42,197 nucleotides of DNA from Micromonospora sp. CPCC 205371 (GTDB lineage Bacteria > Actinomycetota > Actinomycetes > Mycobacteriales > Micromonosporaceae), in assembly GCF_026130045.1 (NCBI RefSeq), contig NZ_JAIBNX010000001.1, positions 162,446 to 204,642 of the forward strand, in the 5' to 3' direction. A model generated the notes under the pieces. That model did not search any database. It was given only the letters and a program-made list of their open reading frames with translations, and was not told the DNA's origin. Shown one piece after another: positions 13,618-33,480 of this stretch (its first letter is position 1; each line of letters starts with the position of its first letter). The translations under genes and the position numbers were made by a program.

Positions 13618-13698
13618 TCGATCAAGGGCGAACGCACGTGCTTTGATCTCTTTTCCACGTGCGTTTGCCCTTGATCCATGCGATCTCCCTTGATCGGC
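13618..13698 (+). repeat. Palindromic three-half-site repeat, copy A
   Basis: Arm 1 (13620-13640) starts GATCAAGGGC and ends GCACGTG; arm 2 (13656-13676) is its complement with a single G-U in the 21 bp stem; the loop is 15 bases containing TTTGATCTCTTTT. After 11 bases comes a third half-site CCTTGATC followed by GGCG. It lies between the convergent STAS and glpK genes, where it may also stop transcription. Three other copies are at 15303, 32832 and 33403. Confidence 0.9.
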
Positions 13699-13704
13699 GG
13701 GCGG

Positions 13705-15222
13705 CTAGTCGACCTCGATCCAGTCCAAGGTGCGCTGGACGGCCTTCTTCCACTTGGCGTACCCCTCGGCCCGCCGCTCCTCCGACCAGGTCGGCTGCCA
13801 GCGCTCGCTCTCGTTCCAGTTCTGCCGCAGTTCGTCGGTGTTCTTCCAAAAACCCACCGCCAAGCCGGCCGCGTACGCCGCACCCAGCGCGGTCGTCTCC
13901 GCGACCACCGGCCGGCTCACCGGCACCCCGAGAATGTCGGCCTGCAACTGCATGCACAGCCGGTTGGCGGTCACCCCGCCGTCCACCTTCAGCACGTCGA
14001 GCCGTACCCCAGAGTCCTTCGCCATCGCCTCGGTGACGTCGCGGCTCTGGTAGCAGATCGCCTCCAGCGTGGCCCGAGCCAGGTGCGCGTTCGTGTTGTA
14101 CCGCGACAGCCCAACGATCACCCCGCGCGCGTCGGAGCGCCAGTACGGCGCGAACAGCCCCGAGAACGCCGGCACGAAGTACACGCCGCCGCTGTCCTCC
14201 ACCTGGGCCGCCAACGCCTCGCTCTGCGCGGCGCCGCTGATGATGCCAAGCTGATCGCGCAGCCACTGGACGGCCGAGCCGGTCACCGCGATCGAGCCCT
14301 CAAGCGCGTACACCGGCGGCTCGTCGCCAAACTTGTAACACACCGTCGTCAGCAGCCCAGACTGCGACCGCACGATCGACGTACCCGTGTTGAGCAGCAT
14401 AAAGTTGCCCGTGCCATAGGTATTCTTCGCTTCACCCTCGGCGAAGCAAACTTGCCCGACCGTAGCGGCGTGCTGGTCGCCCAGGTCCGCCGTCAACGGC
14501 ACCTCCCCGCCCAGCGGACCGCCCGCCCGGGTCACCCCGAAGCGATTAGGGTCCGACGACGGCCGGATCTCGGGCAGCATCGCGCGCGGAATGCCGAAGA
14601 ACGACAGCAGTTCGTCGTCCCAGTCAAGGGTTTCGAGGTTCATGAGCATCGTGCGGCTTGCGTTCGTCACGTCCGTGACGTGCACTCCACCGTCGACCCC
14701 ACCGGTGAGGTGCCACAACAACCAGGTGTCCGTGGTGCCGAAGATCGCTTCACCGCGCTCGGCCGCCTCCCGGACGCCGTCGACGTTCTCGAGAATCCAC
14801 TGCACCTTGCCTGCGGAAAAGTACGTTGCGGGCGGCAGGCCGGCCTTCTCCCGGATGACGTCGCCGCGCCCGTCGCGGTCGAGAGCCGCGGCGATCTGAT
14901 CGGTACGCGTGTCCTGCCAGACGATCGCGTTGTAGTACGGCCGGCCGGTGCGTCTGTTCCACACCACGGCGGTCTCGCGCTGGTTGGTGACTCCGAGCGC
15001 GGCCAGGTCGGATGCGCTCAGGCCGTGAGCGTTCATGACCGTACCGATGACGGCCGACGTGCGCTCCCAGATCTCCAGCGGGTTGTGCTCCACCCAACCG
15101 GCCCGGGGCAGGATCTGCTCGTGTTCGAGCTGGTGCGACCCTACAACGTTCCCCGAGTGGTCAAAGACCATGAACCGCGTACTGGTAGTCCCTTGATCAA
15201 CCGCGCCAACAACCCGCGCCAC
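13705..15222 (-). CDS. glpK: Glycerol kinase
   Basis: A 505-residue FGGY-family kinase that phosphorylates glycerol to glycerol 3-phosphate. The N-terminal ATPase motif [12 protein letters not shown], the glycerol-binding QRET and WQDTRT stretches, the FGGY signature region ([12 protein letters not shown]) and the C-terminal [21 protein letters not shown] are all intact. GTG 15222 follows GGAGGAG by 4 bases and gives the usual start; a further 8 codons upstream are unlikely. No glpF or glpD is adjacent, which is unusual. The gene is bracketed by two same-orientation copies of the palindromic repeat. Confidence 0.96.
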
Positions 15223-15302
15223 GCCACTCCTCCATTCCGCTCCCACTACCCTGCCCGCTCCGCGCCGTTCCGCTCTGCTCCGCGCCCCGCCCCCACCTTC
15301 CG

Positions 15303-15383
15303 TCGATCAAGGACAAATGCACGTGCTTGGATCTCTTTTCCGCGTGCGTTCGCCCTTGATCGTGGCAAACTTCCTTGATCGGC
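15303..15383 (+). repeat. Palindromic three-half-site repeat, copy B
   Basis: Same architecture and orientation as copy A: arms from GATCAAGG to CACGTG and back, loop CTTGGATCTCTTTTC, then TTCCTTGATCGGCG as third half-site. Its stem is the least regular of the four, with two G-U and two A-C pairs in element orientation. It lies upstream of glpK and downstream of the immunity-like gene. Confidence 0.88.
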
Positions 15384-15384
15384 G

Positions 15385-15436
15385 CCGTCGCGTCAAGCAG
15401 CGCGACGGACGGCAAGCCGGAGCGCCACGCTCCGGC
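15385..15436. terminator. Two consecutive perfect hairpins
   Basis: CCGTCGCG (15385-15392) pairs with 15401-15408 around 8 bases, and GCCGGAGCG (15416-15424) pairs with 15428-15436 around 3 bases. They lie downstream of the toxin/immunity-like genes and could end that transcript, although no U-tract follows. Confidence 0.4.
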
Positions 15437-15556
15437 AGCCATTGTCTGCCGACACGGCCGCATCGCGCCGCGGACCCTCCGCCCCGTGCGTCTCAGCCCG
15501 CCAGCGGCCAGACGTTGGAACGCCAGCGTCGCCACCGCGACGGTCCAGCTCCTAGA

Positions 15557-15571
15557 CCCGCATATCGCGGG
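15557..15571 (-). terminator. Short hairpin just after the immunity-like gene
   Basis: CCCGC and GCGGG flank ATATC, 11 bases beyond the stop codon on the minus strand. The stem is only 5 bp, so its terminator role is weakly supported. Confidence 0.3.
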
Positions 15572-15581
15572 GGATTCGGCG

Positions 15582-16328
15582 TCAGACTCGGGCAGGCTTG
15601 GGCGCGTCTAGCACTACCCCGAACTCGTCCGCCTGCCGCTCGTCGCGCCACGGCGCGCACGTCCAGGTGCCGCCCGCGGCTAGCGTCGCCTCCCGCACCT
15701 CGCCGAGGAACGCATTGAGCCGCGTCCCGTTGAGCCTCGACAGCACCCGGTTGTCCAGCGGTTCGCCCCGCGGTATCCCGGTGCGCCCCATAGGCGAATT
15801 CCACGGAAACCAAATATCCGTCGACGTGCTGAAGGTCGCCCAGGTCTCCTCCATATCGGACGATCCCGCGTATCCGTAGTCGATATCCACGTCAAACGGC
15901 CGATAAGAGAACGCACTTGGAAGGCCGATAGCGAGCCCGAACTCCTGCATATCTTGAACCCATCGGTCGGCTATTTCACCGCCAGGAGCCATGTAGCTGA
16001 GGCGCGTCGATACAACCAGCTTGTGCTCGCCGTAACGCAAGTCGTCACCGAGAAGAAACCCGGCAGGAAATCGCGGATTCGAAATGGAGAGCCGGTCAGG
16101 ATGCGCCTTGACAAAGGCGCCGACCGGGCCGTCCACCTCTTGGCGGTACTCCATCCATTCGGCCGCCTCAACCCGAAATATCCCAGTGCGCTCTCCCGCA
16201 TCAAGAACGACGTCTTGCCATGGGAGGAGCGCACCGCTGCCCAGCGCCCAAGGGAAGGTAGCCGTCCACCAGCAGACCTCGCCGCTGTCGAAGCTGTTCC
16301 AGTTATTGACAGGGAGGTCCGAAGACAT
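15582..16328 (-). CDS. Unrecognised protein, candidate immunity partner
   Basis: A 248-residue protein without signal peptide or membrane segment; I do not recognise the family. It is rich in aromatic residues and has an acidic middle section (FDVDIDYGYAGSSDMEETW), a feature common in immunity proteins. The start at ATG 16328 is set by AAGGAGGAG 4 bases upstream, and lies inside the end of the preceding gene (26 bp overlap), so translation is coupled. Base composition of this gene and of the tail of its partner is clearly more A/T-rich than the surroundings, suggesting acquisition. Role as an antitoxin to the nuclease-like partner is inferred from position only. Confidence 0.6.
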   Translation of the reverse strand: MSSDLPVNNWNSFDSGEVCWWTATFPWALGSGALLPWQDVVLDAGERTGIFRVEAAEWMEYRQEVDGPVGAFVKAHPDRLSISNPRFPAGFLLGDDLRYGEHKLVVSTRLSYMAPGGEIADRWVQDMQEFGLAIGLPSAFSYRPFDVDIDYGYAGSSDMEETWATFSTSTDIWFPWNSPMGRTGIPRGEPLDNRVLSRLNGTRLNAFLGEVREATLAAGGTWTCAPWRDERQADEFGVVLDAPKPARV

Positions 16329-18276
16329 GGAACTCCTCCTTAGACCACTGAAACACACCGCGGGCACTCACCATGACCAACTGATCGATGAGAGGCCTTC
16401 CATCCTTACAGATCTGCAACTCAGCCTTGCCATGAAGGAATGCTAGCAACCTCTCTTTGGTGTCCTGGTGAAACTTCAGGCTCATCGGCTCGAGGTATAT
16501 GACCGCTATTTTCGTGTATCCCGGCGGCGCGTCCTGTATCACTTGGGTCTCGCCATCAGGATTCCTCCTGCCGTTGAGTTGGTCGACGGCAGCGTTGATG
16601 TTCGCGATCAACCTCTTCGAACTTACGGATTTGAGTTGGTAGGCGCGTTTGTTGGTGGTGTCGAAGACGTCGGCGCCGTACTTCTTGCCGCCCACCTCGA
16701 TGTGCCCGTCGAGGATGACTTTGGCCCTCGGGTCTTGGCGCAGGATTTCGACCGCCTGCTCGATCTCTCGGCGTACGCCGATCTTGCCTGGATCGGGTTG
16801 CTGAGTGGCGTTTGGGAGGGTGTTGATGTCGGCCTGCGGCAGGCGTGCTGTCAGGCCCTCGGGGTTGAGGAGGCGGCCGGAGTCGACGATGACCTTTAGC
16901 TCGGGGAGCAGGCCGAACCTGACCGCGTCATGGACGGCGTCGACCGCTTCTTCGAGTTGGTCGCGTTGGCCGCGTTGGAGGTTTCGGGTCATCAGGTCGG
17001 TGGCGCGGAGCACTGTGGATTGGTAGGCCGGGTCGATCTGCGGCAGGTCCCTGTTGGGGTCGATGCCGCGTGATCCCAGTCTGCGCAGCACATCGGTGTC
17101 GTTGCCGTGCAGGGTTGGGCTGTGCACCCATGCCAGGTAGTCGACGAAGACCTGTGTTCGCTGACCGCGCTGGGCACGTGGTGCCGGGTTGGGGAAAGTC
17201 ATCCGTGCGGTGGTCAGTGTGGCGCCCGGCCGGAGCGTGCCGAGTGGGAACGATAGTGGCCCGGTCATGCCGGGCGTCGCGTACGCGTGCACGGTGGCGT
17301 TGCCGGGCGCGGTGCCGGCGTTGGTCACGGTGACAGACCAGGAGCAGACGTTCGACGTGCAGTCGGTCGAGTTGATTTTGGTCTCGAAGACGGGGAGTGC
17401 GGCGGGAAGGTTGGCGATCGCGGGTGGTCCCGATGAGGCCTCGTCGGGCAGCACCTTGGCGACTGCCTCGCGTACTCCTTCGGCCTCGGTCGCGGTGGCC
17501 GGCTCGGGCAGCATCGCCGCGTACGGCGGCCGAGCGATCGGATCCGCTGGCGCCAGGCCACGCAGCTCAGCCGCCGCCCAGCCCAACCGGGCCACAGGGC
17601 CGACGAGCCTGCGGTTGCCGGGCGCGGCAGCCGGCGAGCCGTGCCTGTGGGCCGGGGCGAGGGCGACGGGTTTGGAGAAGGCGCGGTCGCGGATCGGGCC
17701 GCCGAGCCACATCAGCCTGCGCGGCTCGTCGGCGGTGACCAGGGCGGTCCAGTCACCGGCGGTGACGGTGACGACGCGCTGGCCAGCAACCGTGTCGGCG
17801 GTGTCGTCGGCGGAGCCGTGCCGGCCGACTGATTGGACCAGGTCGGCCAGCGCGCTTGGGTTCAGCGCCGATGCCACATCGACGGGGTACGCCATGTCGG
17901 GCTCGGGCCTGATCCAGCGGTCCGTCACGCGCTTGAGTGGTCGCGGCGCACGACGGGCCCAGAAGGAGGCGTCGCCGCGGACAGCGATGCCGTCGGGGCC
18001 CGCGAGCAGCTCGGCGCGGCCGGCGGTCGGGTCGGTGATGGTGCCGCTGGCGTAGCGGTCGGCTGTCACCACGAAGTTGCCCGCTACGCGGCGACCGTCG
18101 GGAGCCTCGTAGACCACGGCCAGCTTGACCGCGGGCGCGGCGCGCAGGGCTTCGGCGGCCGCCCCGATGTCGGGGCCGCCCAGGGCGCGCCAGACGAAGA
18201 CGGCCACGGTCGCCGTGAGCACCAGCGTCAGCCCGGCGGACACGAGCCCGATGACGAGGAGACGGCGGGGACGCAT
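16303..18276 (-). CDS. Membrane-anchored multi-domain protein with nuclease-like C-terminus (candidate toxin)
   Basis: A 657-residue protein: one N-terminal membrane segment (residues 5-32), an LppX/LprG-like lipoprotein-type domain (about 37-200; GNFVVTADRYASGTI, VVTVTAGDWTALV), a cysteine-containing beta-sandwich resembling CARDB (about 300-390; VTVTNAGTAPGNATVHAY), a helical segment, and a C-terminal domain from about 500. In that domain EIEQAVEIL, then GADVFD, then YQLKSV give a Glu...Asp...Gln-x-Lys pattern typical of PD-(D/E)xK nucleases used as polymorphic toxin tips. The last ~200 codons are less GC-rich than the N-terminal part. A small overlapping gene follows. It is not a recognised polymorphic-toxin architecture (no WXG, LXG, RHS or PAAR), so the delivery route is unknown. 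It starts 53 bp after the export operon's last gene. Confidence 0.7.
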   Translation of the reverse strand: MRPRRLLVIGLVSAGLTLVLTATVAVFVWRALGGPDIGAAAEALRAAPAVKLAVVYEAPDGRRVAGNFVVTADRYASGTITDPTAGRAELLAGPDGIAVRGDASFWARRAPRPLKRVTDRWIRPEPDMAYPVDVASALNPSALADLVQSVGRHGSADDTADTVAGQRVVTVTAGDWTALVTADEPRRLMWLGGPIRDRAFSKPVALAPAHRHGSPAAAPGNRRLVGPVARLGWAAAELRGLAPADPIARPPYAAMLPEPATATEAEGVREAVAKVLPDEASSGPPAIANLPAALPVFETKINSTDCTSNVCSWSVTVTNAGTAPGNATVHAYATPGMTGPLSFPLGTLRPGATLTTARMTFPNPAPRAQRGQRTQVFVDYLAWVHSPTLHGNDTDVLRRLGSRGIDPNRDLPQIDPAYQSTVLRATDLMTRNLQRGQRDQLEEAVDAVHDAVRFGLLPELKVIVDSGRLLNPEGLTARLPQADINTLPNATQQPDPGKIGVRREIEQAVEILRQDPRAKVILDGHIEVGGKKYGADVFDTTNKRAYQLKSVSSKRLIANINAAVDQLNGRRNPDGETQVIQDAPPGYTKIAVIYLEPMSLKFHQDTKERLLAFLHGKAELQICKDGRPLIDQLVMVSARGVFQWSKEEFHVFGPPCQ

Positions 18277-18329
18277 GACGGGTCACGCTACTACGCGTAC
18301 CTCATTGATCGCAGCCCGCTATCGGAGTC

Positions 18330-18776
18330 CTATTTGGACCCGGTCACGGTAGTGGCGGTGACAGTACCCTCGCTATCGGTCTGGCCCTGAACGGTGACCT
18401 TGTCGCCGGCCTTGAGGTCCTTCAACGCTGCTGCAACCGCGACGGCGGTCTCGCCGTTGGTGCGGACGGTGACCACTTCGCCGGATTCGGTCTGCACGTA
18501 GATGGTGGTTCCGTCGACGAGCTTCACGGTGCCGGTCGTGGGACGGGACGCGGCGGTCGATGGGACGGCGCCGCCGCCGGGAAAACCGCCATAGCCGCCG
18601 CGCTGTCCCTGCGGACCCGACGCGGTCGGCGACGTGGACGAGCCGTACGCCTTCTGCATCTCGATGCCGCCGATGAACCCGCCGAGCACCAGCGCGGCGC
18701 CGACGAGATACACGGTCCACCGGTTCCACCAGCGCTGGCTCGCGGCGGCGGCCAACTCCACCTCGAGTGAGGTCAC
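18330..18776 (-). CDS. Small single-TM protein with OB-like domain, end of export operon
   Basis: A 148-residue protein with a membrane segment (about 22-41), a glycine-rich linker containing GGFPGGG, and a C-terminal beta-rich domain (VKLVDGTTIYVQT, then GDKVTVQGQTDSEGTV) resembling DUF5666/OB-like modules. GTG 18776 follows AGGAGC by 6 bases and lies 9 bp after the permease stop. The GGFPGGG motif also occurs in the adaptor of the same operon, suggesting a shared envelope location. Exact role unknown. Confidence 0.75.
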   Translation of the reverse strand: MTSLEVELAAAASQRWWNRWTVYLVGAALVLGGFIGGIEMQKAYGSSTSPTASGPQGQRGGYGGFPGGGAVPSTAASRPTTGTVKLVDGTTIYVQTESGEVVTVRTNGETAVAVAAALKDLKAGDKVTVQGQTDSEGTVTATTVTGSK

Positions 18777-18785
18777 AACGTGCTC

Positions 18786-19982
18786 CTATTCGTAACGGAG
18801 AGCGTCGATCGGCCTGAGGCCGGCGGCACGGTTGGCCGGGACGCTGCCGAAGAAGAGCCCGATGGCGACGGAGACGCATAGCGCCAGCGCGATCGAGCTG
18901 GGAACGATGACCGGCTGGATGCCGACGATGGTGAAATTGCTGCCGATGAGCGCCGCGGCGACGCCCAACCCGCCACCGATGAGGCTGAGCATGGTGGCTT
19001 CGGCGAGAAACTGGGTGAGGATTACCCGTCGGGGCGCGCCGAGCGCCTTGCGGATGCCGATCTCGCGGGTCCGCTCGGTGACGGTGACCAGCATGATGTT
19101 GGTGATACCGATGCCCCCGACGAGCAGGCTGATGCCGGCGACCGCGCCGAGCAGCGTGGTGAAGGTGTCGGCGGTCTCGGTCTGTGTCTCCAGCAGCTGT
19201 GAGGCGTTCTGGATGCGGTACGGCGCCGAGGTGGATGTGGCTTCGACCTTGAGCCGCTGGTTGAGAATCGTGGTGATCTGGGCCTGCACGTCGGAGACAC
19301 GCTCGGGCGCGGAAGCCTCGACGACGATGGAAGTCAGCGACCCGTACCCCGTGAGGGCCTGCTGCACGGCGGTGAGCGGCGCGATCGCGACGTCGTTGGC
19401 GTCCTGGAAACCGCTGGAGGAGCTCTTCTCGTCGAGCACACCGACGATGGTGAAGAGTGACCCGCTGACCGTGAGCTCTTGGCCGATCGGGTCGAGGCCC
19501 GGAAATAGCTCTTCGGCCACCGTCTGTCCAATGACGACGACCCGCCGCCCCTGTTCCACATCCGCAGTCGTGAAGCCGGTTCCGCGGCCGACCGGCGAGT
19601 TCGAGGCGGTGAAGTAGCTGGCGTAGCTGCCGACGAACTGTTGCACCGAGTGGTCGGTGCCCTGATACGTCAGGGTGGCGGAGGTGCTGACGACCGGCGA
19701 TACCGACTCCACGTCCGGTGCCAGTACCGAATCCTTCAATGCCTGGGCGACCTGCACGGTCAGCGGCGACGACCCACCACGCGACGTGCTCTGCACGGTC
19801 AGCGTGTTGGTGCCGAGCGCCTCGATGCGGTCGGCGACCTGTTGCGCGGAGCCGTTTCCCACGGCGACCAGCAGGATAACGGCGGCGACGCCGATGAGGA
19901 TGCCGAGCATGGTCAGGCCGGAGCGCAGCTTGTTGGCGCCGATGCCGCGTACCGCGAAGCGGCACACCTCCCACACGTTCAT
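18786..19982 (-). CDS. MacB-type ABC permease
   Basis: A 398-residue permease with the MacB topology: first membrane helix near residues 20-42 (SGLTMLGILIGVAAVILLVAVG), a large extracytoplasmic MacB_PCD domain (about 45-270), and three helices at the C-terminus. ERTREIGIRKALGAPRRVI is the family signature. It couples to the ATPase through an ATGA overlap. MacB-type transporters move substrate on the outer side of the membrane by mechanotransmission rather than pumping through it. It is one of seven co-directional genes with two adaptors and a two-component system. Confidence 0.95.
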   Translation of the reverse strand: MNVWEVCRFAVRGIGANKLRSGLTMLGILIGVAAVILLVAVGNGSAQQVADRIEALGTNTLTVQSTSRGGSSPLTVQVAQALKDSVLAPDVESVSPVVSTSATLTYQGTDHSVQQFVGSYASYFTASNSPVGRGTGFTTADVEQGRRVVVIGQTVAEELFPGLDPIGQELTVSGSLFTIVGVLDEKSSSSGFQDANDVAIAPLTAVQQALTGYGSLTSIVVEASAPERVSDVQAQITTILNQRLKVEATSTSAPYRIQNASQLLETQTETADTFTTLLGAVAGISLLVGGIGITNIMLVTVTERTREIGIRKALGAPRRVILTQFLAEATMLSLIGGGLGVAAALIGSNFTIVGIQPVIVPSSIALALCVSVAIGLFFGSVPANRAAGLRPIDALRYE

Positions 19983-20671
19983 GCCGCGACCACCTGGCGC
20001 ACGTCGGAGGAGATCTGCCCGTCGAAGAGCTTGACCAGCCGCTTCGCGCGGGCGCTGACGTCGGGCTCGTGCGTGATGATCAGGATGGTGCGGCCGGCGG
20101 CGCTGAGCTGGTCGAAGATCGTGAGGATGTCCTCTGTGGACCTGCTGTCGAGGTTGCCGGTGGGTTCGTCGGCGAGCAGCAGCGCCGGCTCGGTGACCAG
20201 CGCCCGAGCCACCGCGACCCGCTGCTGTTGACCGCCGGAGAGCTGGTTGGGTTCGTGGTCTGCCCGGTCGGCCAGACCCACCATGTCGAGGGCGGCCCGG
20301 GCGCGGCGGCGTCGCAGCGCCGGTTTCACGCCCGCGTACGCCAAAGGCAGCTCCACATTGGCCAGTGCCGTGGTGCGCGGGATGAGGTTGAACGACTGGA
20401 AGATGAAGCCGATCCGGCGGTTTCGCACGAGGGCGAGCTGGCGATCGTTGAGGCGGCTCACGTCGACCCCGTCGAGCAGGTACTGGCCGCTGCTGGGCAC
20501 GTCGAGGCAGCCGAGAATGTTCATCAGGGTCGACTTGCCGGAGCCTGACGAGCCCATGATGGCCACATAGTCGCCCTGCTCGACGCTGAGCGAAACACCG
20601 CGCAGGGCATGCACGGCCGCCTCGCCTTCGCCGTACACCTTGGCGACGCGGCGGACGTCGAGAACCGTCAT
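19979..20671 (-). CDS. MacB-type ABC ATP-binding protein
   Basis: A 230-residue ATPase: Walker A GSSGSGKST (near residue 42), Q-loop FIFQSFNLIP, signature LSGGQQQRVAVARAL, Walker B LLLADEPTGNLD, H-loop IITHEPD. The wording is typical of MacB/LolD ATPases. ATGA overlaps join it both to the upstream adaptor and the downstream permease, so adaptor, ATPase and permease are translated as a set. Confidence 0.96.
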   Translation of the reverse strand: MTVLDVRRVAKVYGEGEAAVHALRGVSLSVEQGDYVAIMGSSGSGKSTLMNILGCLDVPSSGQYLLDGVDVSRLNDRQLALVRNRRIGFIFQSFNLIPRTTALANVELPLAYAGVKPALRRRRARAALDMVGLADRADHEPNQLSGGQQQRVAVARALVTEPALLLADEPTGNLDSRSTEDILTIFDQLSAAGRTILIITHEPDVSARAKRLVKLFDGQISSDVRQVVAA

Positions 20672-21786: not shown

Positions 21787-21827
21787 GGGCGACAGCCTGA
21801 TGGGGGCTGCTCGGAGCAACCCCCGCG

Positions 21828-25164: not shown

Positions 25165-25350
25165 GGAGGGCGAGTGTCACGGGTACTCCTCACCGCTCGC
25201 TCGGCCGCGCCTCGGAGTTCGCTGAGAGTCGATTCGAAGCCTTCTCCCAGCTTGGTCTGACGTGTCGCCGAGGTCCCGCCGCTTGGCTGAGCCGTCGTGC
25301 CGCGGCGCGCCCCCAGGCCCGCGGCACGACCCCAACAATTTGGAGGACCA

Positions 25351-25917: not shown

Positions 25918-27109
25918 CCGCCGGGTCCTCCACATAGCGCGGACGCGCCACCGCGAGACCGGCCGCGGTCTGGACCACCGCCGCCGCGATCAGCAGAGCG
26001 ATCGGTACCGTCCAGCCGGCGGTCACCTCGTAGAGGGCGCCGACCAGCAGGGGCCCCAGCGCGGCGATCAGATAACCCGTGCTCTGTGTGAAGGCGGAGA
26101 GTGCCACGGTGCCCTCGGCGGTGCGGGCGCGCAGTCCGATCGCGACCAGCGCCAGCGGAAACGCGCCCTGCCCGATCGCCAGCAGCACCACCCAGAACAG
26201 CGCGCCACCGTGCGGCGCCACGGCGAGCCCCACGTACGACGCGATCATCGCGACGGAGAGGGTAAGCACGAGTGGACGCAGGCTGCGCAGCTTGGTCGCC
26301 AGCGTCGGCATGGCCAGCGCCACCGGCACTCCGACCGCGGTGACCCCGGCAAGCAGCAGCCCAGCCGTCTGGGGCGAGTACCCAGAGTCCCGGAAGAGCT
26401 GCGCCAGCCAGCCCATCGTCGCGTACCCGCTCAGTGACTGCGTGCCGAAGTAGAGCGCCATCGCCCAGCCGACGCGGGTGCGCCCCGGCCGTATCCGGCT
26501 GGCCGGCGCGGGCAGTGCGGCCCGGCCGGGCGTCGAGCGGCGCATGATCGGCAGCCACGGCAGCACGGCGATCGCCGCGAGCACGGTCCACGCTCCGAGC
26601 CCGGCCCGCCACGAGCCGAAGGCGTCCGCGATCGGCACCGCCGACGCGGCGGCCACGGTGGCGCCGGCGGTCAGCGCGACGGTGTACGCGCCGGTGACGA
26701 GCCCGGCACGGTCCGGGAAGTGCTGTTTGACCAGCAGGGGCAGCAGGACGTTGGCGACCGCGATGCCGGCGAGGGCGAGCGCGCTGGTGGCCACGAAGAC
26801 GACCGTGGAGCCGGTGACCACCCGGATCGCCTCACCCGCGGCCAGCGCCACCATGGCGACGAAGAGCACCCGGCTCGGCGCGAACCGGCGTACCAGCACC
26901 GGGGTCAGCGCCCCGAACGCCGCGAACGCGATCGTCGGCATCGTCGTGACAGCGCTCGCCATCGCGCCCGAGAGCTGCAGCCCGGTGCGTACCTCGTCGA
27001 GCAGTGCGCCCAGGCTGGTGATGGCGGTGCGGAGGTTGACGGCGACGAGCAGGATGCCGGCGAGGACGAGCGCGGTGCCATGAGTGCGGGTGGCGGCAGG
27101 GGCAGACAT
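25907..27109 (-). CDS. MFS transporter, CynX/NimT family
   Basis: A 400-residue, 12-helix major facilitator protein. LVAVNLRTAITSLGALLDEV near the start and the LPLLVKQHFPDRAGLVTGAY loop are typical of the CynX/NimT (cyanate/2-nitroimidazole) group; substrates of most members are unknown. It is divergent from a GntR-type regulator across a 52 bp gap with a palindromic site, so it is probably controlled by that regulator. Confidence 0.9.
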   Translation of the reverse strand: MSAPAATRTHGTALVLAGILLVAVNLRTAITSLGALLDEVRTGLQLSGAMASAVTTMPTIAFAAFGALTPVLVRRFAPSRVLFVAMVALAAGEAIRVVTGSTVVFVATSALALAGIAVANVLLPLLVKQHFPDRAGLVTGAYTVALTAGATVAAASAVPIADAFGSWRAGLGAWTVLAAIAVLPWLPIMRRSTPGRAALPAPASRIRPGRTRVGWAMALYFGTQSLSGYATMGWLAQLFRDSGYSPQTAGLLLAGVTAVGVPVALAMPTLATKLRSLRPLVLTLSVAMIASYVGLAVAPHGGALFWVVLLAIGQGAFPLALVAIGLRARTAEGTVALSAFTQSTGYLIAALGPLLVGALYEVTAGWTVPIALLIAAAVVQTAAGLAVARPRYVEDPAVTR

Positions 27110-27125
27110 GATCCTTCGAGTCTAG

Positions 27126-27140
27126 AATCATGGGATGATT
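27126..27140. promoter_or_regulatory. Palindromic operator between MFS and GntR genes
   Basis: AATCATGGGATGATT is a perfect inverted repeat with 6-base arms and a 3-base centre, placed in the 52 bp between the two divergent starts. This length and layout fit a GntR/FadR-family dimer site acting on both genes. Confidence 0.6.
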
Positions 27141-27161
27141 TATGGTCGGGTGATGTAACCA

Positions 27162-27809
27162 ATGCCACGGGGCGGGCAGACGCTCGTGCGCCAGGTCATC
27201 GACCAGCTCCGCGAGCAGGTCACGAGCGACGCGTGGCCGGTGGGCGGCCGCATCCCGACCGAGCCGCAGCTCGTCGAGGCGCTCGGCGTGGGGCGCAACA
27301 CCGTCCGCGAGGCGGTGCGGGCGCTCGTGCACGCCGGGGTGCTGGAGTGCCGGCAGGGCTCCGGCACGTACGTCGTCTCCGCCGACGAACTCTCCGGGGC
27401 GATGTCTCGCCGGCTCGCGAGCGCGCAGGTGGCCGAGGCCGTCGAGGTGCGCCGGGCGTTCGAGGTCGAGGCGGCACGGCTCGCGGCCGGACGGCGTACA
27501 CCGGAAGACATGGCGGCGCTCGACGGCGCGCTCGCCGACCGCGAGGCCGCATGGCGATCAGGCCGCGTCGCCGACTTCGTCGAGGCCGACGCCGTGCTGC
27601 ACGCGGCGATCGTGGCCGCCGCGCACAACACGATGCTGGCGGAGCTGTACGCGTCGTTCGGCGCCGCGACGCGCGCGACGATCGCCGAGGGGGTGGGCGG
27701 CGAGTTGCACCGTGACAGATATGTCGATCACGGCCGGCTGGTGGCGGCGATCCGGGCCGGCGATGCGGAGCGTGCGGCCAATGAGGCTGGCGCGTTCCTA
27801 GAGGTCTAG
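27162..27809 (+). CDS. GntR/FadR-family transcriptional regulator
   Basis: A 215-residue regulator: N-terminal winged helix (IPTEPQLVEALGVGRNTVREAVRALVHAGVL, a textbook GntR recognition region at about residues 30-62) and a C-terminal all-helical FCD-type domain (VRRAFEVEAARLAA, then DAVLHAAIVAAAHN, then DHGRLVAAIRAGD) with the Asp/His residues that bind metal and carboxylate ligands. It probably regulates the divergent MFS transporter. Confidence 0.92.
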   Translation: MPRGGQTLVRQVIDQLREQVTSDAWPVGGRIPTEPQLVEALGVGRNTVREAVRALVHAGVLECRQGSGTYVVSADELSGAMSRRLASAQVAEAVEVRRAFEVEAARLAAGRRTPEDMAALDGALADREAAWRSGRVADFVEADAVLHAAIVAAAHNTMLAELYASFGAATRATIAEGVGGELHRDRYVDHGRLVAAIRAGDAERAANEAGAFLEV

Positions 27810-27834
27810 CCGAATTGGGCATACGGTGCTGGGC

Positions 27835-28245
27835 ATGCTCAAGGGCTTCAAAGACTTCATCATGCGCGGCAACGTGGTCGACCTGGCTGTCGGCATCGTC
27901 ATCGGCGCGGCGTTCACCGCCGTCGTCACCACCTTCACCAAGTCGTTCCTGGAGCCGCTGATCCGGCTCGCGTCAGGCGGAAAGGGCATCAAAGCGGGCG
28001 GATTCCACATCCGCGACATCTACTTCGACGTCCCCGCCTTCATCAACGGCGTCATCGCGTTCCTCCTCACCGCCGCTACCCTGTACTTCCTCGTCGTCGT
28101 ACCGATGAACAAGCTCGCCGGGCGGCGCGGGGGGGGGGGGGGGGGCCCCGCCGGCGCCCGCGGGGGGGGGGGGCGGGCGCTGACGGAGATCCGCGACGCC
28201 CTCGTGGCGCGCCGCGTTCCCGAGCAGGCGGACCCCCGCAGATAG
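27835..28245 (+). CDS. mscL: Large-conductance mechanosensitive channel
   Basis: A 136-residue MscL, the pentameric channel that opens on hypo-osmotic shock. MLKGFKDFIMRGNVVDLAVGIVIG is the conserved N-terminus and TM1; TM2 is at about 65-90. ATG 27835 is preferred over GTG 27826 because MLKGFK is the family start. Between the second helix and the C-terminal LTEIRDAL helix the translation becomes only Gly/Pro/Ala/Arg, coinciding with a 17-G and a 12-G run. The frame is kept, so the protein is likely intact but this linker sequence should not be trusted. Confidence 0.93.
   Translation: MLKGFKDFIMRGNVVDLAVGIVIGAAFTAVVTTFTKSFLEPLIRLASGGKGIKAGGFHIRDIYFDVPAFINGVIAFLLTAATLYFLVVVPMNKLAGRRGGGGGGPAGARGGGGRALTEIRDALVARRVPEQADPRR
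28129..28173. repeat. Poly-G tracts inside mscL, probable artefact
   Basis: A run of 17 G (28129-28145) and one of 12 G (28162-28173) flank a C/G-only segment. The cytoplasmic linker of MscL is normally acidic and polar, so loss of all A and T here most likely reflects miscalled bases. Confidence 0.65.
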
Positions 28246-28261
28246 TCGAACATCTGTTCTA
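28246..28261 (+). promoter_or_regulatory. LexA SOS box upstream of a small gene
   Basis: TCGAACATCTGTTCTA matches the actinobacterial LexA consensus TCGAAC-N4-GTTCGA at 11 of 12 specified positions. It directly follows the mscL stop and overlaps the TATACA -10 (28260-28265) of the next gene, the usual position for LexA repression. Confidence 0.7.
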
Positions 28262-28273
28262 TACAGTGCTGCC

Positions 28274-28501
28274 ATGGAGCAGCGAAAACACTGGTGGAAC
28301 GGCAAATGGGGGCGGCTCGCCCGCCGGGATGTGTACCTGCGCGCGGACGCCGACCAGTGGTTCGTCGAGCAACGTGCGGGCGGGGCCGAAGGCGTGTCTC
28401 GCTTCTACGAGTTCGACAGCGAAGACGAGGCGTACGAGGCCGTCCGACTGATGCTGGACGGCCCGGACGACTGGCGGCAGCTAGATGGCAGTGCTACCTA
28501 G
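28274..28501 (+). CDS. Small hypothetical protein, probably DNA-damage inducible
   Basis: A 75-residue protein of unknown family; basic, tryptophan-rich N-terminus (KHWWNGKWGRLARRD) and acidic C-terminal helix (SEDEAYEAVRLMLDG). No signal peptide or membrane segment. The ATG lies 8 bases after TATACA with no ribosome site, suggesting a leaderless message, and the promoter is covered by a LexA-type box. The shape (about 75 residues, one strand-helix unit) is like small inhibitor or adaptor proteins, but I cannot assign a function. Confidence 0.65.
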   Translation: MEQRKHWWNGKWGRLARRDVYLRADADQWFVEQRAGGAEGVSRFYEFDSEDEAYEAVRLMLDGPDDWRQLDGSAT

Positions 28502-28515
28502 ATAGCTGTGCTACC
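28482..28515 (+). repeat. Tandem 17-bp repeat in the PadR promoter
   Basis: TAGATGGCAGTGCTACC (28482-28498) is followed directly by TAGATAGCTGTGCTACC (28499-28515), 15 of 17 identical. The second copy ends in TACCTT, a possible -10, 7 bases before the GTG of the PadR gene, so this is probably both promoter and operator. The first copy overlaps the end of the small upstream gene. Confidence 0.6.
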
Positions 28516-28524
28516 TTCTTCCGC

Positions 28525-28851
28525 GTGGATCAGGAACGGCGAGGCCAGTGGCTGCGCGGCGTCCTCGACGTCTGCGTGCTGGCTCTGCTGGGCCGGCGGG
28601 AGTCCTATGGATACGAGCTGGCGCAAGCGCTCGACGCGGCTGGGTTCGGCCAGATTCAGGGCGGCACGCTGTACCCGGTGCTGTTGCGCCTCCAGCGCAC
28701 CGGCCTGATCACGGCCGAGTGGCGCGAGGGCGCCTCGGGCCCCGCACGCAAGTACTACCGGCTCACAGAGGACGGCGAGCAGGCGCTGGCGCGGCTCTCC
28801 GCCGACTGGTCCGTGTTCGCTGGCCACGTCGACGCGGTAATCCGGAGGTGA
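28525..28851 (+). CDS. PadR family regulator (short, PadR-s1 type)
   Basis: A 108-residue winged-helix regulator: LLGRRESYGYELAQAL, GTLYPVLLRLQRTGLI and YRLTEDGEQAL are the diagnostic PadR segments. It has no extra dimerisation domain, as usual for PadR proteins that precede HAAS/ABC cassettes. GTG 28525 is likely leaderless. Its stop overlaps the GGAGG ribosome site of the next gene, so it is co-transcribed with the ABC module it probably represses. Confidence 0.92.
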   Translation: MDQERRGQWLRGVLDVCVLALLGRRESYGYELAQALDAAGFGQIQGGTLYPVLLRLQRTGLITAEWREGASGPARKYYRLTEDGEQALARLSADWSVFAGHVDAVIRR

Positions 28852-28853
28852 CC

Positions 28854-29684
28854 ATGGACAACGACAGATGGTTGTGGACGCTCGGGCAGGAACTGGCCCG
28901 GCACCAGCTCGGGCCGGACGCGGTCCGGCACGTGGTCGCGGAGGCCGCCGCGCACCTGCGCGACAGTGGGCAGCCGGCGCTGCGGGCGTTCGGCACGCCG
29001 GAGGGGTACGCGGCAGCGGTCGCGGAGAGCCTGGCGGCTCGATACGGGCGGCCGGCCCGTCCAGCGCCCGGCCGGGTACGCCTGTCGGCCCGCGGCATCA
29101 CCAAGCGGTACCGCCGGCGCACCATCCTGCGCTCGGTGGACCTGACGGTACGGGCCGGCGAGGTGGCCGCCGTGGTCGGAGCGAACGGCGCGGGCAAGAG
29201 CACCTTCCTGCGTATCTGCGCCGGGCTGCTCACGCCGGACGCCGGTGAGGTAATGCTCGACGGCCGCCTCGGATACTGCCCGCAGGACGCCGGCACATAC
29301 GACTTTCTCCTGCCCGACGAGCAGTTCGTGCTGATCGGGGCCGGTCGTGGGCTCGATCGTGAGCGCTCCAAGCAGATCGGCCGAGCGGGCGCCGCCGCGC
29401 TCCAGTGGCGGCCGGCGGCCGGAGTCCAGACGCGCCACCTGTCCGGGGGCACCCGGCAGAAGCTCAACCTCGTCATGGCGTCCATGGGCGAGCCCGACGT
29501 GCTGCTGCTCGACGAGCCATACCAGGGCTTCGACCGCGGCACGTACCTCGACTTCTGGCAGCACGTCTGGCGCTGGCGCGACGAGGGCCGGGCGGTCGTC
29601 GTGGTGACCCACCTGCTGAGCCAGCTCGACCAGGTCGACCAGGTGCTCGACCTGACACCCGCGTCCGAAGGAGCGGCGGCATGA
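28854..29684 (+). CDS. HAAS-like domain fused to ABC ATPase
   Basis: A 276-residue protein. Residues 1-65 are a helical segment (WLWTLGQELARHQLG.., then AFGTPEGYAAAVAESL) resembling the HAAS domain that often accompanies PadR regulators; residues 80-270 are an ABC ATPase with Walker A GANGAGKST, signature LSGGTRQKLNL, Walker B VLLLDEP and H-loop VVVTH. HAAS and ATPase are usually separate proteins, so this is a fusion. ATG 28854 has GGAGG 5 bases upstream. It energises the permease encoded next. Confidence 0.85.
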   Translation: MDNDRWLWTLGQELARHQLGPDAVRHVVAEAAAHLRDSGQPALRAFGTPEGYAAAVAESLAARYGRPARPAPGRVRLSARGITKRYRRRTILRSVDLTVRAGEVAAVVGANGAGKSTFLRICAGLLTPDAGEVMLDGRLGYCPQDAGTYDFLLPDEQFVLIGAGRGLDRERSKQIGRAGAAALQWRPAAGVQTRHLSGGTRQKLNLVMASMGEPDVLLLDEPYQGFDRGTYLDFWQHVWRWRDEGRAVVVVTHLLSQLDQVDQVLDLTPASEGAAA

Positions 29685-30367
29685 AGATCCTGACCGTTGC
29701 CGAGATGGCCATCCGCGAGATGGTGCGCCGCCGTGCCGTGCTCGCCCTCCTGCTCGCCCTCCCGCTGGCCTTCTACCTGGTGCGCCGCGGCGACCAGGTC
29801 GGCCAGTCGATCCGGTTCCTGCTGATCGGCCTCGCGTGGGCCGTCAGCACGGCGGCCCTGTTCGCCAGCGGCACCAGCCGGCCGATCGAGCCGCGGCTAC
29901 GGCTGTCCGGGTACGCCAGCCACCACCTCTATCTGGGCCGGCTCGCCGCGATGTGGCTGCTCGGCATCGTGGTCGCTGCGCCGTTCTTCGCGCTCGTCGC
30001 GATCGACCACGGCGACCAGGTGCGCCTCGGCGCGGTGGCGCTGGCGATGCTGTTCGCGGTGACCGTGGCCGCGCCTTTCGGGCTGCTCATCGGGGCGCTG
30101 GTGCCGCGCGAGCTGGAGGGCACGCTGCTCCTGCTGGTGGTGGTCGGGCTCCAGATGATGATCGATCCGGCCGACGCCCTGACGAAGGTGACGCCGTTCT
30201 GGTCCAGCCGCGAGATCGCCACGTACGCCGTCGACCACACCGGCGACGAGTACCTCACCAGGGGCCTCGTGCACGGCCTCGCCTTCACCATCCTCGCGAC
30301 GGCTGTGGTAGCACTACTGTCGACTCTGCGTCTACGTGTCCGGCTACGGGCGGCAACGTCAGCGTAA
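29681..30367 (+). CDS. ABC transporter permease (ABC-2-like)
   Basis: A 228-residue protein with about six membrane helices and no large outside domain, the permease of the PadR/HAAS-ABC cassette. ATGA overlap with the ATPase stop and GAAGGAG 7 bases upstream support the start. The last 83 bp overlap, antisense, the end of the sensor kinase gene; both reading frames look genuine up to their final residues. Confidence 0.82.
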   Translation: MKILTVAEMAIREMVRRRAVLALLLALPLAFYLVRRGDQVGQSIRFLLIGLAWAVSTAALFASGTSRPIEPRLRLSGYASHHLYLGRLAAMWLLGIVVAAPFFALVAIDHGDQVRLGAVALAMLFAVTVAAPFGLLIGALVPRELEGTLLLLVVVGLQMMIDPADALTKVTPFWSSREIATYAVDHTGDEYLTRGLVHGLAFTILATAVVALLSTLRLRVRLRAATSA

Positions 30368-32015
30368 ACGTGGTGCCGACACCCACCTGGCTGGCGACGA
30401 CGATCGTGCCGTGGTGGTCGGTCACGATCTGTCGGACGATCGCCAGACCCAGCCCGCTGCCGCCGGTACGCCGGCCGCGTGCTTGGTCGCCCCGCCAGAA
30501 CCGGTCGAACACGTTCGGCAGCGCCTCGGCGGGGATGCCGGTGCCGGTGTCGGCCACGCGCACCACCACCGAGCCACCCATGTGCCCGGCCGTCAGGGTC
30601 ACGCTGCCACCAGCTGCGGTGGCCCGGATGGCGTTGGAGATGAGGTTGCCGAAGACCTGCCGCATCCGGTCCGGGTCGACGTTGACCAGCACCGGCTCGT
30701 GCACTGCCACTGCCAGCCGTACGCCGGCCGTCTCCGCCACCGCGAGATGCGCGGTCCGGGCCGTCTCCAGCAGCTCGGCGAGGTCGATGACCACCCGGTG
30801 GTACGCCAGCGTGCCCGCCTCGGCGAGCGCCAGGTCTTGCAGGTCGTTGACGATGCGCTGCTGGAGCACCGCCTCCTCGTGCAGCGACGCGAAGAGCTCG
30901 GTGTCGGGCGCGATCACGCCGTCCTTGAGCGCCTCCAGGTAGCCGCGCAGGTTCGCCAACGGCGTTCGCAGCTCGTGTGCCACGTCGGCCACCAGCCGGC
31001 GCTGGCGCTCCTCGGCACGCTGGAGCGAGTCGGCCATCCGGTTGAACGAGCGGCCGAGCTCGGCCACCTCGTCGCCACCCGACACCGAGACCCGGCTCGC
31101 CAGGTCACCGCGGCCGAGCCGGCCGGCGGCCTCGGTGGGGCGCACGGTCGGCCGCCGCACCCGCCGGCTCAGCGGCGCGGGGCCGGCGCTCGCGGGAATC
31201 GCCACCCCGGCCGCGGCGACGAGCATCGGCCCGGCCGAAAGCGGTCGCGACGGCTCCCCGCCGACGCCGAGCGTGACCCGCAGCGGCACCGCCGACACAT
31301 CGCTGACCTGCTCGGTGAAGACCCGCGCCAGGCACGTGGTGAGCGACTCCTCGCCCGGCGTCGCGACCGGGTCGGGGTTCGCCAAGGCCGCCGGCGGCCG
31401 GCCGGCATCCGACGACTCCAGGCAGGCGTTGACCCGCTGCTGATCCTGCTCCGGGTCTCGCTGGGACTCGCTGGCGAAGTCGCCGCATTGCGGAAGCATC
31501 TCGCTGCTCCGGTAGGACGGCACGCCGAACGAGTCGACGTTCATATCGATCGGCGCGCTGTTACGCGTCTGGCAGGCCGCGAGCCGTACCCCGTATCGGT
31601 AGTTGCTGATCAGCTTGAGCGTCACGAGCAGCGCCGTCTTCGGTTCTTCGCCCTCCGGGAACGTCAGCACGGGACGCGGGTCGACCAGCGTCACGGTGGT
31701 GCCGAGTTCCCGGGCCGTACGCCCATTGAGCTGGTCGGTGTCCGCCACCACCTCACCGAACTCGGTAGCCAGGTGCAGGCGCTGGCCGGTCCGTTGGCCG
31801 AGGTCCGAGAGCAGCGACGGCACCTGCTCCCAGGTGCCGTGGGTCCGCGCGTAGTTGAGCAACTCCTCGTGCACCAGGTCGGTGACCTCCTGGTCAGCGG
31901 TCGCCGACTCGGTGAGCTGCTCGGACGCCTGGCGCAGGGTCAGCCATGCCGTCGCCCCGATCGCGGTGAGCGCGACCAGCATGACGAGCCCCAGTACGCG
32001 CAGGCGGAAGCTCAA
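30285..32015 (-). CDS. Sensor histidine kinase with large extracytoplasmic domain
   Basis: A 576-residue kinase. TM1 at about 6-27, an outside domain of about 230 residues with four cysteines (148, 177, 198, 228; two likely disulfides), then HAMP, phospho-acceptor His347 (VADVAHELRTPLANL), and HATPase_c with NLISNAIRAT, DTGTGIP and GSGLGLAI boxes. The second membrane helix (about 262-282) is poor: it contains prolines and few large hydrophobics, and the HAMP start is also irregular, in a C/G-heavy patch (31140-31215), so sequence error is possible. The start is a TTG in a TTGA overlap with the regulator stop. Confidence 0.9.
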   Translation of the reverse strand: MSFRLRVLGLVMLVALTAIGATAWLTLRQASEQLTESATADQEVTDLVHEELLNYARTHGTWEQVPSLLSDLGQRTGQRLHLATEFGEVVADTDQLNGRTARELGTTVTLVDPRPVLTFPEGEEPKTALLVTLKLISNYRYGVRLAACQTRNSAPIDMNVDSFGVPSYRSSEMLPQCGDFASESQRDPEQDQQRVNACLESSDAGRPPAALANPDPVATPGEESLTTCLARVFTEQVSDVSAVPLRVTLGVGGEPSRPLSAGPMLVAAAGVAIPASAGPAPLSRRVRRPTVRPTEAAGRLGRGDLASRVSVSGGDEVAELGRSFNRMADSLQRAEERQRRLVADVAHELRTPLANLRGYLEALKDGVIAPDTELFASLHEEAVLQQRIVNDLQDLALAEAGTLAYHRVVIDLAELLETARTAHLAVAETAGVRLAVAVHEPVLVNVDPDRMRQVFGNLISNAIRATAAGGSVTLTAGHMGGSVVVRVADTGTGIPAEALPNVFDRFWRGDQARGRRTGGSGLGLAIVRQIVTDHHGTIVVASQVGVGTTFTLTLPPVAGHVDAESTVVLPQPSRGW

Positions 32016-32698
32016 GATTCCGCCAGCCTGTACCCGCGGCCGTAGACCGTCTGCACGTAACGCGGCTCGGCGGCGTCCGCCTCGATCTTGCGCCGCAGGT
32101 TCATCACGTGAGCGTCCACGGTGCGCTCCAGCACGTAGTGGTCGAATCCGAAAGCGCGGTCGATGATCTGCGCCCGCGTGAACACCCGCCCCGGCTCGGC
32201 CGCCAGTACCTCCAGGATTCCGAACTCCTTCGCCGTCAGCACGATCGGACGCCCCTCCACCCGTACTTCGAACCGGCCGGCATCGATCTCCAGCTCGCCG
32301 ACCCGCAGTATCTTCTGGTTGCCCGCGGTGACGGTGCCCGCACGGCGCAGCAGCGCGCGGACCCGCGCGGTCAACTCGCGCGGGCTGTAGGGCTTGGTGA
32401 TGTAGTCGTCGGCGCCGACGTCGAGGCCGAGCAGCAGGTCATCTTCCGTCGAACGGGCGGTCAGCAGCAGGATCGGGACCTTCGACTCCGACCGCAGGAT
32501 CCGGCAAACGTCCATGCCGTCTACGACCGGCATCATCACATCGAGCACCACCAGGTCCGGGCGGCGCGACCGGGCCTGCTCCAGCGCCGCCCGGCCGTCG
32601 CCAACCAGTAACACGCTGCGCCCGGCGGGCTCCCCGGGCCCCCCGACCAAGATGGCCGCCTTAGGTGGGGCTTCTGCGACCAGGATGCGCGCGCTCAT
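32012..32698 (-). CDS. OmpR-family response regulator with abnormal receiver N-terminus
   Basis: A 228-residue regulator. Phospho-acceptor Asp53 (LVVLDVMMP), TKPYS lysine and the winged helix (ending YGRGYRL) are normal. The acidic pair that binds magnesium (normally two Asp after the first strand) is missing: the sequence reads LVAEAPPK, and the first helix is replaced by Gly/Pro/Ala-rich residues to about position 27. Either the receiver cannot be phosphorylated normally or a patch of bases is miscalled to C/G (32620-32675). AGGAGT lies 4 bases before the ATG. It forms a pair with the following kinase. Confidence 0.88.
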   Translation of the reverse strand: MSARILVAEAPPKAAILVGGPGEPAGRSVLLVGDGRAALEQARSRRPDLVVLDVMMPVVDGMDVCRILRSESKVPILLLTARSTEDDLLLGLDVGADDYITKPYSPRELTARVRALLRRAGTVTAGNQKILRVGELEIDAGRFEVRVEGRPIVLTAKEFGILEVLAAEPGRVFTRAQIIDRAFGFDHYVLERTVDAHVMNLRRKIEADAAEPRYVQTVYGRGYRLAES

Positions 32699-32831
32699 AG
32701 GACTCCTATAGTGCCCGGCACCTTGGTGAAGATCCTATGAAGAAATTGTTCGATACCGATCGGGTCAGGTCCTCGATACCCCCATACGCACCTTCCCGCC
32801 ACGAAACGCGCGGCGCCGCCCCCCGTTCGCG

Positions 32832-32912
32832 TCGATCAAGGGCAAATGCACGTGGTTCGATCTCTTTTCCGCGTGCGTTTGCCCTTGATCGATGCGAACG
32901 GCCTTGATCGGC
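32832..32912 (+). repeat. Palindromic three-half-site repeat, copy C
   Basis: Arm 1 is 32834-32855, loop 32856-32868 (TTCGATCTCTTTT), arm 2 32869-32890, then GATGCGAACGG and the third half-site CCTTGATCGGCG. The 22 bp stem has only two non-Watson-Crick pairs, both G-U in element orientation. Confidence 0.9.
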
Positions 32913-33058
32913 GCGCGGCCACGCAGCGCCGCCATGAGCGGCGGCCAGGCGCCGGCATCGTTACCGCTTGCGGATGCCACCCTCCGACACACTCATAGCG
33001 GCGCGCCCCTTACGGCGCCATGGGCCCCGCGCTCAAACCGCCCGACGCCGGTCGGGCG

Positions 33059-33120
33059 AGATCTTGGAGGGTTGTGGCTGAAATGACGCCAAGACGCGCC
33101 AAGATCTACCGATCTTGGCG
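33059..33120. repeat. Second palindromic element with AGATCTTGG half-sites
   Basis: AGATCTTGG (33059-33067) is the perfect complement of CCAAGATCT (33099-33107), and CGCCAAGATC (33097-33106) is the perfect complement of GATCTTGGCG (33111-33120) with a 4-base loop. The central copy can therefore pair with either neighbour, giving two alternative hairpins. Confidence 0.7.
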
Positions 33121-33214
33121 GCATCACGTCGCCCAGAGCGACGCTCCAACTCCAAGGTTGGCGCGCAACGGAATCGGCGCGGCGCGTCCGCGTCCTCCAC
33201 GCCAGCCAAGCTCC

Positions 33215-33224
33215 CCGATCAAGG
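33215..33224 (-). repeat. Possible remnant of the three-half-site repeat
   Basis: CCGATCAAGG is identical to the complement of the third half-site (CCTTGATCGG) of copies A to C. It is short, so chance is possible. Confidence 0.3.
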
Positions 33225-33402
33225 ACGCCACGCCGATGGCTTAAGGGAGACCCCCGTCAAGGTCATCGTTCCGGCGGCAATGTTCACAGCTTGAGTGGCT
33301 CGCGGTGCTTGACGGGACATTTCGGTCGGGCATGGAGCGCTGACCGGTGCCCGCCGGGCGTGGTCGGCAATGACGAAGCGCCGGATCGCGCAGTCAACGA
33401 CG

Positions 33403-33480
33403 TTGATCAAGGAGATCTGCATCGATCAAGGGCAAATACACGCGGAAAGAGATCGAACCACGTGCATTCGCCCTTGATCA
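33403..33480 (-). repeat. Palindromic three-half-site repeat, copy D (inverted)
   Basis: On the minus strand the order is arm 1 (33479-33458), loop TTCGATCTCTTT, arm 2 (33445-33424), then ATGCAGATCT and third half-site CCTTGATC. The stem has three non-Watson-Crick pairs, all G-U when read on the minus strand. This copy is opposite to the other three. Confidence 0.88.

Follow-up and report, generated by a model that had tools for sequence, protein, structure and literature searches.

The window analysed here, a stretch of 42,197 nucleotides from Micromonospora sp. CPCC 205371 (contig NZ_JAIBNX010000001.1, positions 162,446 to 204,642), contains four copies, A to D, of a palindromic element that recurs several hundred times in its host genome. 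Our favoured explanation, to which we attach a probability of roughly 60%, is that this element is a lineage-specific, high-copy and non-autonomous DNA hairpin of the REP/BIME sort (repetitive extragenic palindromic sequences and bacterial interspersed mosaic elements), which is non-coding and is spread in trans. An earlier note, made from the letters of the window alone, had described a four-copy element and had proposed, among other readings, a palindrome related to REPs or to miniature inverted-repeat transposable elements (MITEs). The four copies hold for the window, but the host assembly (9.36 Mb in 481 contigs) yields 412 matches to the pattern formed by the loop and second arm, with up to 3 mismatches, against none for the reversed control; the number was thus understated and the reading as a high-copy palindrome is borne out.

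Copy number and distribution

The full pattern of first arm, loop and second arm has 386 exact matches in the host, a good number of the matches sitting at contig ends as is typical of repeats in fragmented assemblies. Among congeners the distribution is uneven: the same search returns 555 matches in the sister species (G004) and none of this type in four others (G001, G002, G003 and G005), and a looser palindrome gives 595 for the sister species and 1, 1, 8 and 1 for the four. At a larger scale, the full pattern occurs in 22 of the 354 family genomes, host included, versus none of 395 other genomes of the phylum sample, and among the sampled genomes the pattern is therefore confined to one bacterial family. 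Congeners with no copies and with more than 500 offer a natural experiment for the hunt of a putative mobilising enzyme by gene comparison.

Other genera possess cousin hairpins with GATCAAGG-CCTTGATC ends and different cores, for instance 89 in G014 and 26 in G156, and 20 of 32 genomes selected for this search possess at least one. The GATCAAGG palindromes of G014 and G156 also differ in their loops. In G032, most of 38 hairpins, which fall into several core types, have a loop with TTGATC or TTNGATC, as judged by eye. A blastn search with copy C gave no match among plasmids or phages at an E-value of 0.01; seven viral contigs (L223-L229) match a loose hairpin pattern. Another hairpin, marked by GATCA(A)GG and a core of GGCGTCCTTCAAGTCG or near it, occurs in L122 (after 2194), where it stands past a stop codon, and in L100 (from 18793); a similar one is present in G011, and it may be a family-wide gene-end hairpin of its own.

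Architecture and pairing

The anatomy was drawn from 82 copies in 1.19 Mb of the host, where some of the stretches had been picked partly for containing copies, and from 61 copies in 0.8 Mb of the 10.7-Mb genome of the sister species. The module is about 80-85 bases long and consists of a CGYC border, a hairpin with a directional 15-base loop, TTNGATCTC, and a third half-site of the GATCAAGG type, placed 19 bases beyond where the second arm ends. Conservation opens about 11 bases before the first arm with a T/C run ending in CGYC, proceeds through GATCAAGG, the inner arm, TTNGATCTC and the second arm, and stops sharply 23 bases past the latter, at the end of CCTTGATCGGCG. The half-sites have a period of 19 bases, and the stem is generally of 21-22 bp. 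The earlier note had claimed a conserved third half-site, and so it is: it starts 11 bases past the second arm in 61 of 65 host copies, the four others being two copies cut at the end of a stretch, one chance match inside a gene and one flipped hairpin, and in 60 copies of the sister species each base of CCTTGATC is 95-100% conserved. Some copies of the sister species have an extra, fourth half-site upstream. The flipped hairpin (L099:11812-11868) is reversed relative to its own pyrimidine tract and third half-site and resembles an in-place inversion of the stem.

All four window copies show this plan, with 21-base arms, a loop with TTNGATCTC (one T fewer in D) and CCTTGATC beginning 11 bases after the second arm. 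Copy A occupies 13620-13676 on the plus strand, with arms at 13620-13640 and 13656-13676, its loop at 13641-13655, CGTC before it at 13616-13619 and its third half-site, CCTTGATCGGCG, at 13688-13699. Copy B follows at 15305-15361 (plus; third half-site 15373-15384), copy C at 32834-32890 (plus; third half-site 32902-32913), where the stem reaches about 28 bp, and copy D at 33424-33479 on the minus strand, with its third half-site at 33401-33412. The arms, loops and third half-sites had been recognised in the earlier note, albeit with starts some 2 bases too early and, in the case of D, with the third half-site included.

That note's central claim was that G-U pairs keep the stem in one orientation, which would point to selection on a single-stranded hairpin of fixed direction. 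Its count was right, 8 of 10 arm mismatches being G-U (A 1/1, B 2/4 with two A-C pairs, C 2/2, D 3/3), three of the eight being the same T.G at pair 20/38; over the genome the claim fails. In 76 host copies the ratio of G-U to A-C is 106:49, of which pair 20/38, where T.G is the common state, supplies 46 and 4; without it the ratio is 60:45 (p 0.17), and in the 61 copies of the sister species it is 51:47 (p 0.76). When arms are exchanged between the copies of these same sets, the number of Watson-Crick pairs stays at the observed level, with 810 seen against 811.6 (standard deviation, sd, 7.2) in the host and 660 against 666.9 (sd 6.2) in the sister species. The combinations at variable pairs, taken from 61 copies of 57 bases and from the sets just given, lie near the expectation for independent arms or below it, as for pair 14/44 of the sister species with 18 Watson-Crick pairs versus 26.6 expected. 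Seven stem positions vary in 12% or more of the host copies, and six of these are CpG versus TpG or CpA steps.

Between lineages the picture is one of paired change. The inner arms read GCACGTG/CACGTGC in the host and GGYCGTG/CACGRCC in the sister species, each self-complementary, and two cousin sets pair above their arm swaps, with 381 Watson-Crick pairs versus 300 (sd 10.7) in G032 and 543 versus 511 (sd 6.2) in the set g4; these counts cover all 38 G032 and 67 g4 hairpins listed (an earlier round had taken 36 and 53), the listing giving the first places of each genome. Covariation is therefore real between lineages and within both cousin sets; within the host and within the sister species pairing equals that of the arm swaps. 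One result does favour the earlier note: G-U to A-C is 49:21 in g4 (67 hairpins), as compared with 47:38 in G032 (38 hairpins). For 53 of the g4 hairpins, 33:16 was seen against about 47:30 predicted by independent arms. The depletion there is thus somewhat stronger for A-C than for G-U, although independent arms alone already lean the same way. Because paired change separates the lineages and the pairing of G032 and g4 lies far above arm swaps, we conclude that the hairpin is under selection as a fold or is copied as one; the data fall short of a fixed single-strand direction, with no excess of G-U over independent arms in the host or its sister and only g4 leaning that way.

Flanking arrays and turnover

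A second property of the element concerns the sequence on its 5' side. Tandem arrays with a Tandem Repeats Finder (TRF) score of at least 70 lie there in 22 of 69 host copies and 19 of 58 copies of the sister species (41/127 together), compared with 6/69 and 11/58 on the 3' side, 2/225 and 3/176 control spacers (5/401), and about 1 and 0.6 such arrays in dinucleotide shuffles of the 5' flanks. The repeated unit varies by locus, and in 31/48 and 32/44 cases no more than 20 bases separate the end of the best array from the element. Arrays abutting hairpins can be seen, for example, before L114:9226, L095:680 (minus strand) and L165:2527 (minus strand). Past the hairpin the units are mostly absent: the mean percentile on the 3' side is 0.55 and 0.56, with values above 0.95 in 3/48 and 7/44, the latter slightly over chance. 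We considered whether arrays had been pre-existing targets and set this aside, since their units mostly stop at the hairpin and the orthologous spacers of congeners, at the few loci available, are short or contain a gene.

The 5' spacer is also C-rich, with a GC skew of -0.25 to -0.30 over 200 bases in the host and, measured over 150 bases, of about -0.2 to -0.4 in the sister species; the skew is seen whichever of the four gene settings is considered, and 34 and 25 convergent spacers free of the element are near 0. On the 3' side it is near 0 in the host and, in the sister species, +0.2 and then fading. Such composition accounts for part of the weak arrays (about 20/49 at score 30 in the host), not for strong ones. 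The flanks of 29 cousin hairpins of other genera are likewise C-rich before and G-rich after, with tandem repeats in 12/29 and 15/29 flanks versus 18/116 distant controls.

Positions turn over between the two copy-rich species: among 55 gene pairs adjacent in both, the hairpin lies at 2 in the host and at none in the sister species. Neighbouring genes may be affected as well. Of 39 comparable junctions, five lack a gene in the host, and the hairpin was found at 2 of these versus 1 of the 34 others (p 0.04, on small numbers); one of the five is a difference of gene calling, the spacer having equal length in all genomes. Where copies C and D lie, each of the five congeners has an additional called gene; in the sister species it encodes 243 residues with the motif HEVGHFLGH, which we take to be metalloprotease-like, and similar DNA is present in the other four. 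At the place of copy A, one or two genes separate the STAS gene and glpK in G001, G002, G004 and G005, not in G003.

These observations suggest how the element could behave. It would spread as folded single-stranded or cruciform DNA, an unlinked nuclease or transposase possibly recognising its constant ends and loop. The long stem might stall or break replication, and repair on the 5' side would leave tandem repeats specific to each locus and occasionally a gene deletion. It is tempting to go further and to picture a hairpin that, with no REP-associated tyrosine transposase (RAYT), makes local sequence, laying down C-rich 5' arrays, clearing neighbouring genes and reshaping intergenic regions across the family, although this we regard as tentative and rather unlikely. 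If hairpins do cause the adjoining arrays, the arrays would constitute a genome-wide record of the effect of long DNA hairpins on bacterial replication.

Several results weigh against spreading in trans as the explanation, and its main gap is the missing enzyme. The Y1_Tnp family (PF01797), to which a RAYT or IS200-like transposase as envisaged in the earlier note would belong, has no match in the host nor in 11 of 12 relatives, and two partial matches in G013, with a search that scores in 5 of 14 control genomes. When the proteins of about 2 Mb were clustered, families had at most 3 members at 55% identity and no transposase-like recurrence appeared beside copies, the clusters being judged directly rather than by a family search. 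Neither a target-site duplication nor an exact empty site is readable, the orthologous sites being too diverged. Decayed copies are nearly lacking (86 strong matches and 1 weaker in the host; 62 and 5 in the sister species), which also suits a maintained function, and variable sites in the host are weakly linked yet above chance (32 of 231 pairs versus 11.6 expected; 72 host and 61 sister copies entered the linkage analysis), unlike a recent burst from a single master. Lastly, what ties the slippage and deletion steps to the hairpin is association. What remains is an abundant long-stem family in genomes that lack a RAYT-type gene.

Alternative explanations

An element copied around and kept as RNA, either as a terminator or as a stabiliser of mRNA 3' ends, is an alternative that we consider unlikely, even though several features are in its favour. 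The four window copies have very stable predicted RNA folds (z -4.6 to -9.3), and the loop strand folds better than its complement in 52 of 71 host copies. By the calls of a simple in-house gene caller, 29 of the 77 copies alone in their spacer are flanked by convergent genes, versus 90 of 655 spacers of at least 100 bases, and 53 of the 77 follow a gene of the same direction, the median distance to the gene on the 5' side being 96 and 90 bases. The C-rich 5' flank, moreover, presumably resembles a Rho-loading RNA. Yet C-richness is unchanged where no gene reads in, 10 of the 77 solo copies lie between divergent genes (versus 207/655 spacers), and those in tandem settings, 24 co-oriented and 14 anti-oriented, reveal no clear direction, so that the regulatory RNA suggested in the earlier note finds little echo in orientation to genes. 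The sister species shows no strand advantage (35/61) and, as seen above, has A-C mismatches as common as G-U, and the window has no Rfam match at the gathering score. A tendency for the 5' side to be nearer to genes was also looked at and was not significant in solo copies (23/42 and 21/35).

We find it doubtful, too, that the element is a dyad to which a chromosome-organising or replication protein binds, selected as double-stranded DNA through its GATCAAGG half-sites with their 19-base period. The constancy of the GATCAAGG ends and of the third site with free variation between them, the scarcity of decayed copies, a density of one copy per about 13-23 kb and arms that vary independently within the host and within the sister species would all agree with such a site. 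Against it stand the four congeners without this type, the few comparable positions, none of which is shared with the sister species, and the stem cores, which are rewritten between genera with pairing kept, a needless effort for a base-specific dyad.

A third alternative, improbable in our view and overlapping with the favoured hairpin spread in trans, regards each hairpin as the terminal inverted repeat of a larger transposon, built as element, interior and inverted element and able to carry any DNA. It draws on the arrangement of neighbours. Among 36 close pairs (gap under 1500 bases), 25 are head-to-head, 11 in the same direction and none reverse, and with full matches only (E under 1e-8) 28 are head-to-head, 4 plus 6 have the same direction and none is reverse. 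The order is not strict under looser counting: with partial matches to E 0.001 the sister species has 3 reverse-order neighbours under 1200 bp, which involve hits of some 30 bases next to complete copies, and the host has 2 reverse neighbours in the range of 1500-6000 bp. Head-to-head order is independent of genes, since the host copies that share a spacer (all copies minus solo ones) split into 6 convergent, 6 tandem and 6 divergent. One pair together with its interior exists at two loci (L103:13691-14330 and L110:2-588), about 78% alike overall, the outer hairpin ends lying 622 and 574 bases apart and the left flanks being mostly unlike beyond the element. Flank repeats in the sister species concentrate on the third-site side, with 33 matches between two such sides, 1 mixed and none between two opposite sides, partners with a common interior being counted twice. 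The same count in the host shows a weaker bias (15, four of them from the one duplicated unit, 12 and 6). Because the right element of the second locus coincides with the contig end, so that only the left border is visible, we rate the larger transposon lower; in addition, about half of the copies have no partner inside 1.5 kb, and the other interiors are unrelated, contain ordinary genes or are mosaics of other repeats. A conserved interior was sought and only the duplicated unit and scattered repeats were found, and a gene shared by head-to-head partners was likewise discarded, 13 inspected intervals holding ordinary genes or none.

The two-state RNA switch of the earlier note, in which the third half-site competes with the second arm, is very improbable: the third site is indeed fixed in place and its fold with the first arm is the predicted best for copy B, but on average that fold is worse by 5.0 kcal/mol in the host and 8.6 kcal/mol in the sister species, the gene context is inconsistent and g4 cousins are displayed without a third site.

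Relation to known repeats

High copy number, intergenic siting, a palindromic form and closeness to gene ends make the hairpin a REP in the wide sense. The excess of solo copies between convergent genes, their shortage between divergent ones and the head-to-head order of close neighbours also speak for the favoured explanation. MITEs are short, numerous and equipped with inverted repeats, as is our element, for which no parent transposon was found and, at orthologous sites that are too diverged, no target duplication seen. In the BIME mosaics of enterobacteria, other sequence separates palindromic units that face opposite ways; our element shares this layout and differs by a far larger spacing and by intervening sequence that is not constant. 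It resembles the GTAG REPs and the REPINs as dispersed folded DNA in inverted pairs, and departs from the GTAG REP/RAYT system by its CGYC border in place of a GTAG tag and by the lack of a Y1 transposase in the host and 11 of 12 relatives.

The closest known kind within the REP/BIME world are the CGTC-tagged REPs (Di Nocera et al. 2013, PMC3733652). These are described there as high-copy intergenic palindromes located mostly at convergent or tandem sites, with 8-9 bp stems, 4-5 base loops and unpaired tags, preferring head-to-head dimers whose partners are mostly 20-100 bp apart, and without a dedicated transposase. Our element matches this account in being a high-copy intergenic palindrome with a CGTC-like border and no dedicated transposase found, and in its dominant head-to-head order (25/36, none reverse), at wider spacing; equating a tag-outward arrangement with their 'HH' is our own reading. 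It differs by a stem of at least 21 bp, a 15-base loop, a third half-site and partners spaced from 133 bp up to the 1500-bp cut-off; its CGYC before the first arm, which may correspond to their tag, is largely complementary to GAYG after the second. Given the size of stem and loop, the mostly paired border, the wide pair spacing and the third half-site, we see in it a variant, not a member, of the CGTC REPs as they appear in that account. The main text of that article does not contain the words Actinobacteria, actinomycet or Frankia, one passage naming untagged REP-like families in M. tuberculosis, and REP-like repeats without a known transposase, such as the CGTC REPs, are an open problem. 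In the literature searched, with subscription journals outside it, nothing combined Micromonosporaceae and repetitive extragenic palindromic sequences, and no publication describing this hairpin element was found, as judged by the listings.

The copies in their neighbourhood

Copy A begins 30 bases after the stop of a STAS-domain gene (13239-13589, plus) and lies just past the stop codon of an FGGY carbohydrate kinase gene (13705-15171, minus), glpK-like, with 78% identity, across 95% of the query, to a Nonomuraea gerenzanensis record. Copy B has a weak C-rich tandem repeat on its 5' side (15255-15286, plus; 10-mer, 3.2 copies, 72% matches), and copy D has a tandem repeat on its own 5' side (33488-33567, minus; 14-mer, 5.9 copies, 75% matches). 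Copies C and D are the left and right partners of a head-to-head pair, with a response regulator gene (32012-32698, minus) as left neighbour. Their interior (32914-33400, no strand assigned) has no called gene and is not repeated as a whole elsewhere, parts of it having seven other matches of about 45-58 bases. It also includes, at 33055-33130, a second palindrome formed from AGATCTTGG/CCAAGATCT, about 50 bases of which are found again at five further genomic positions.

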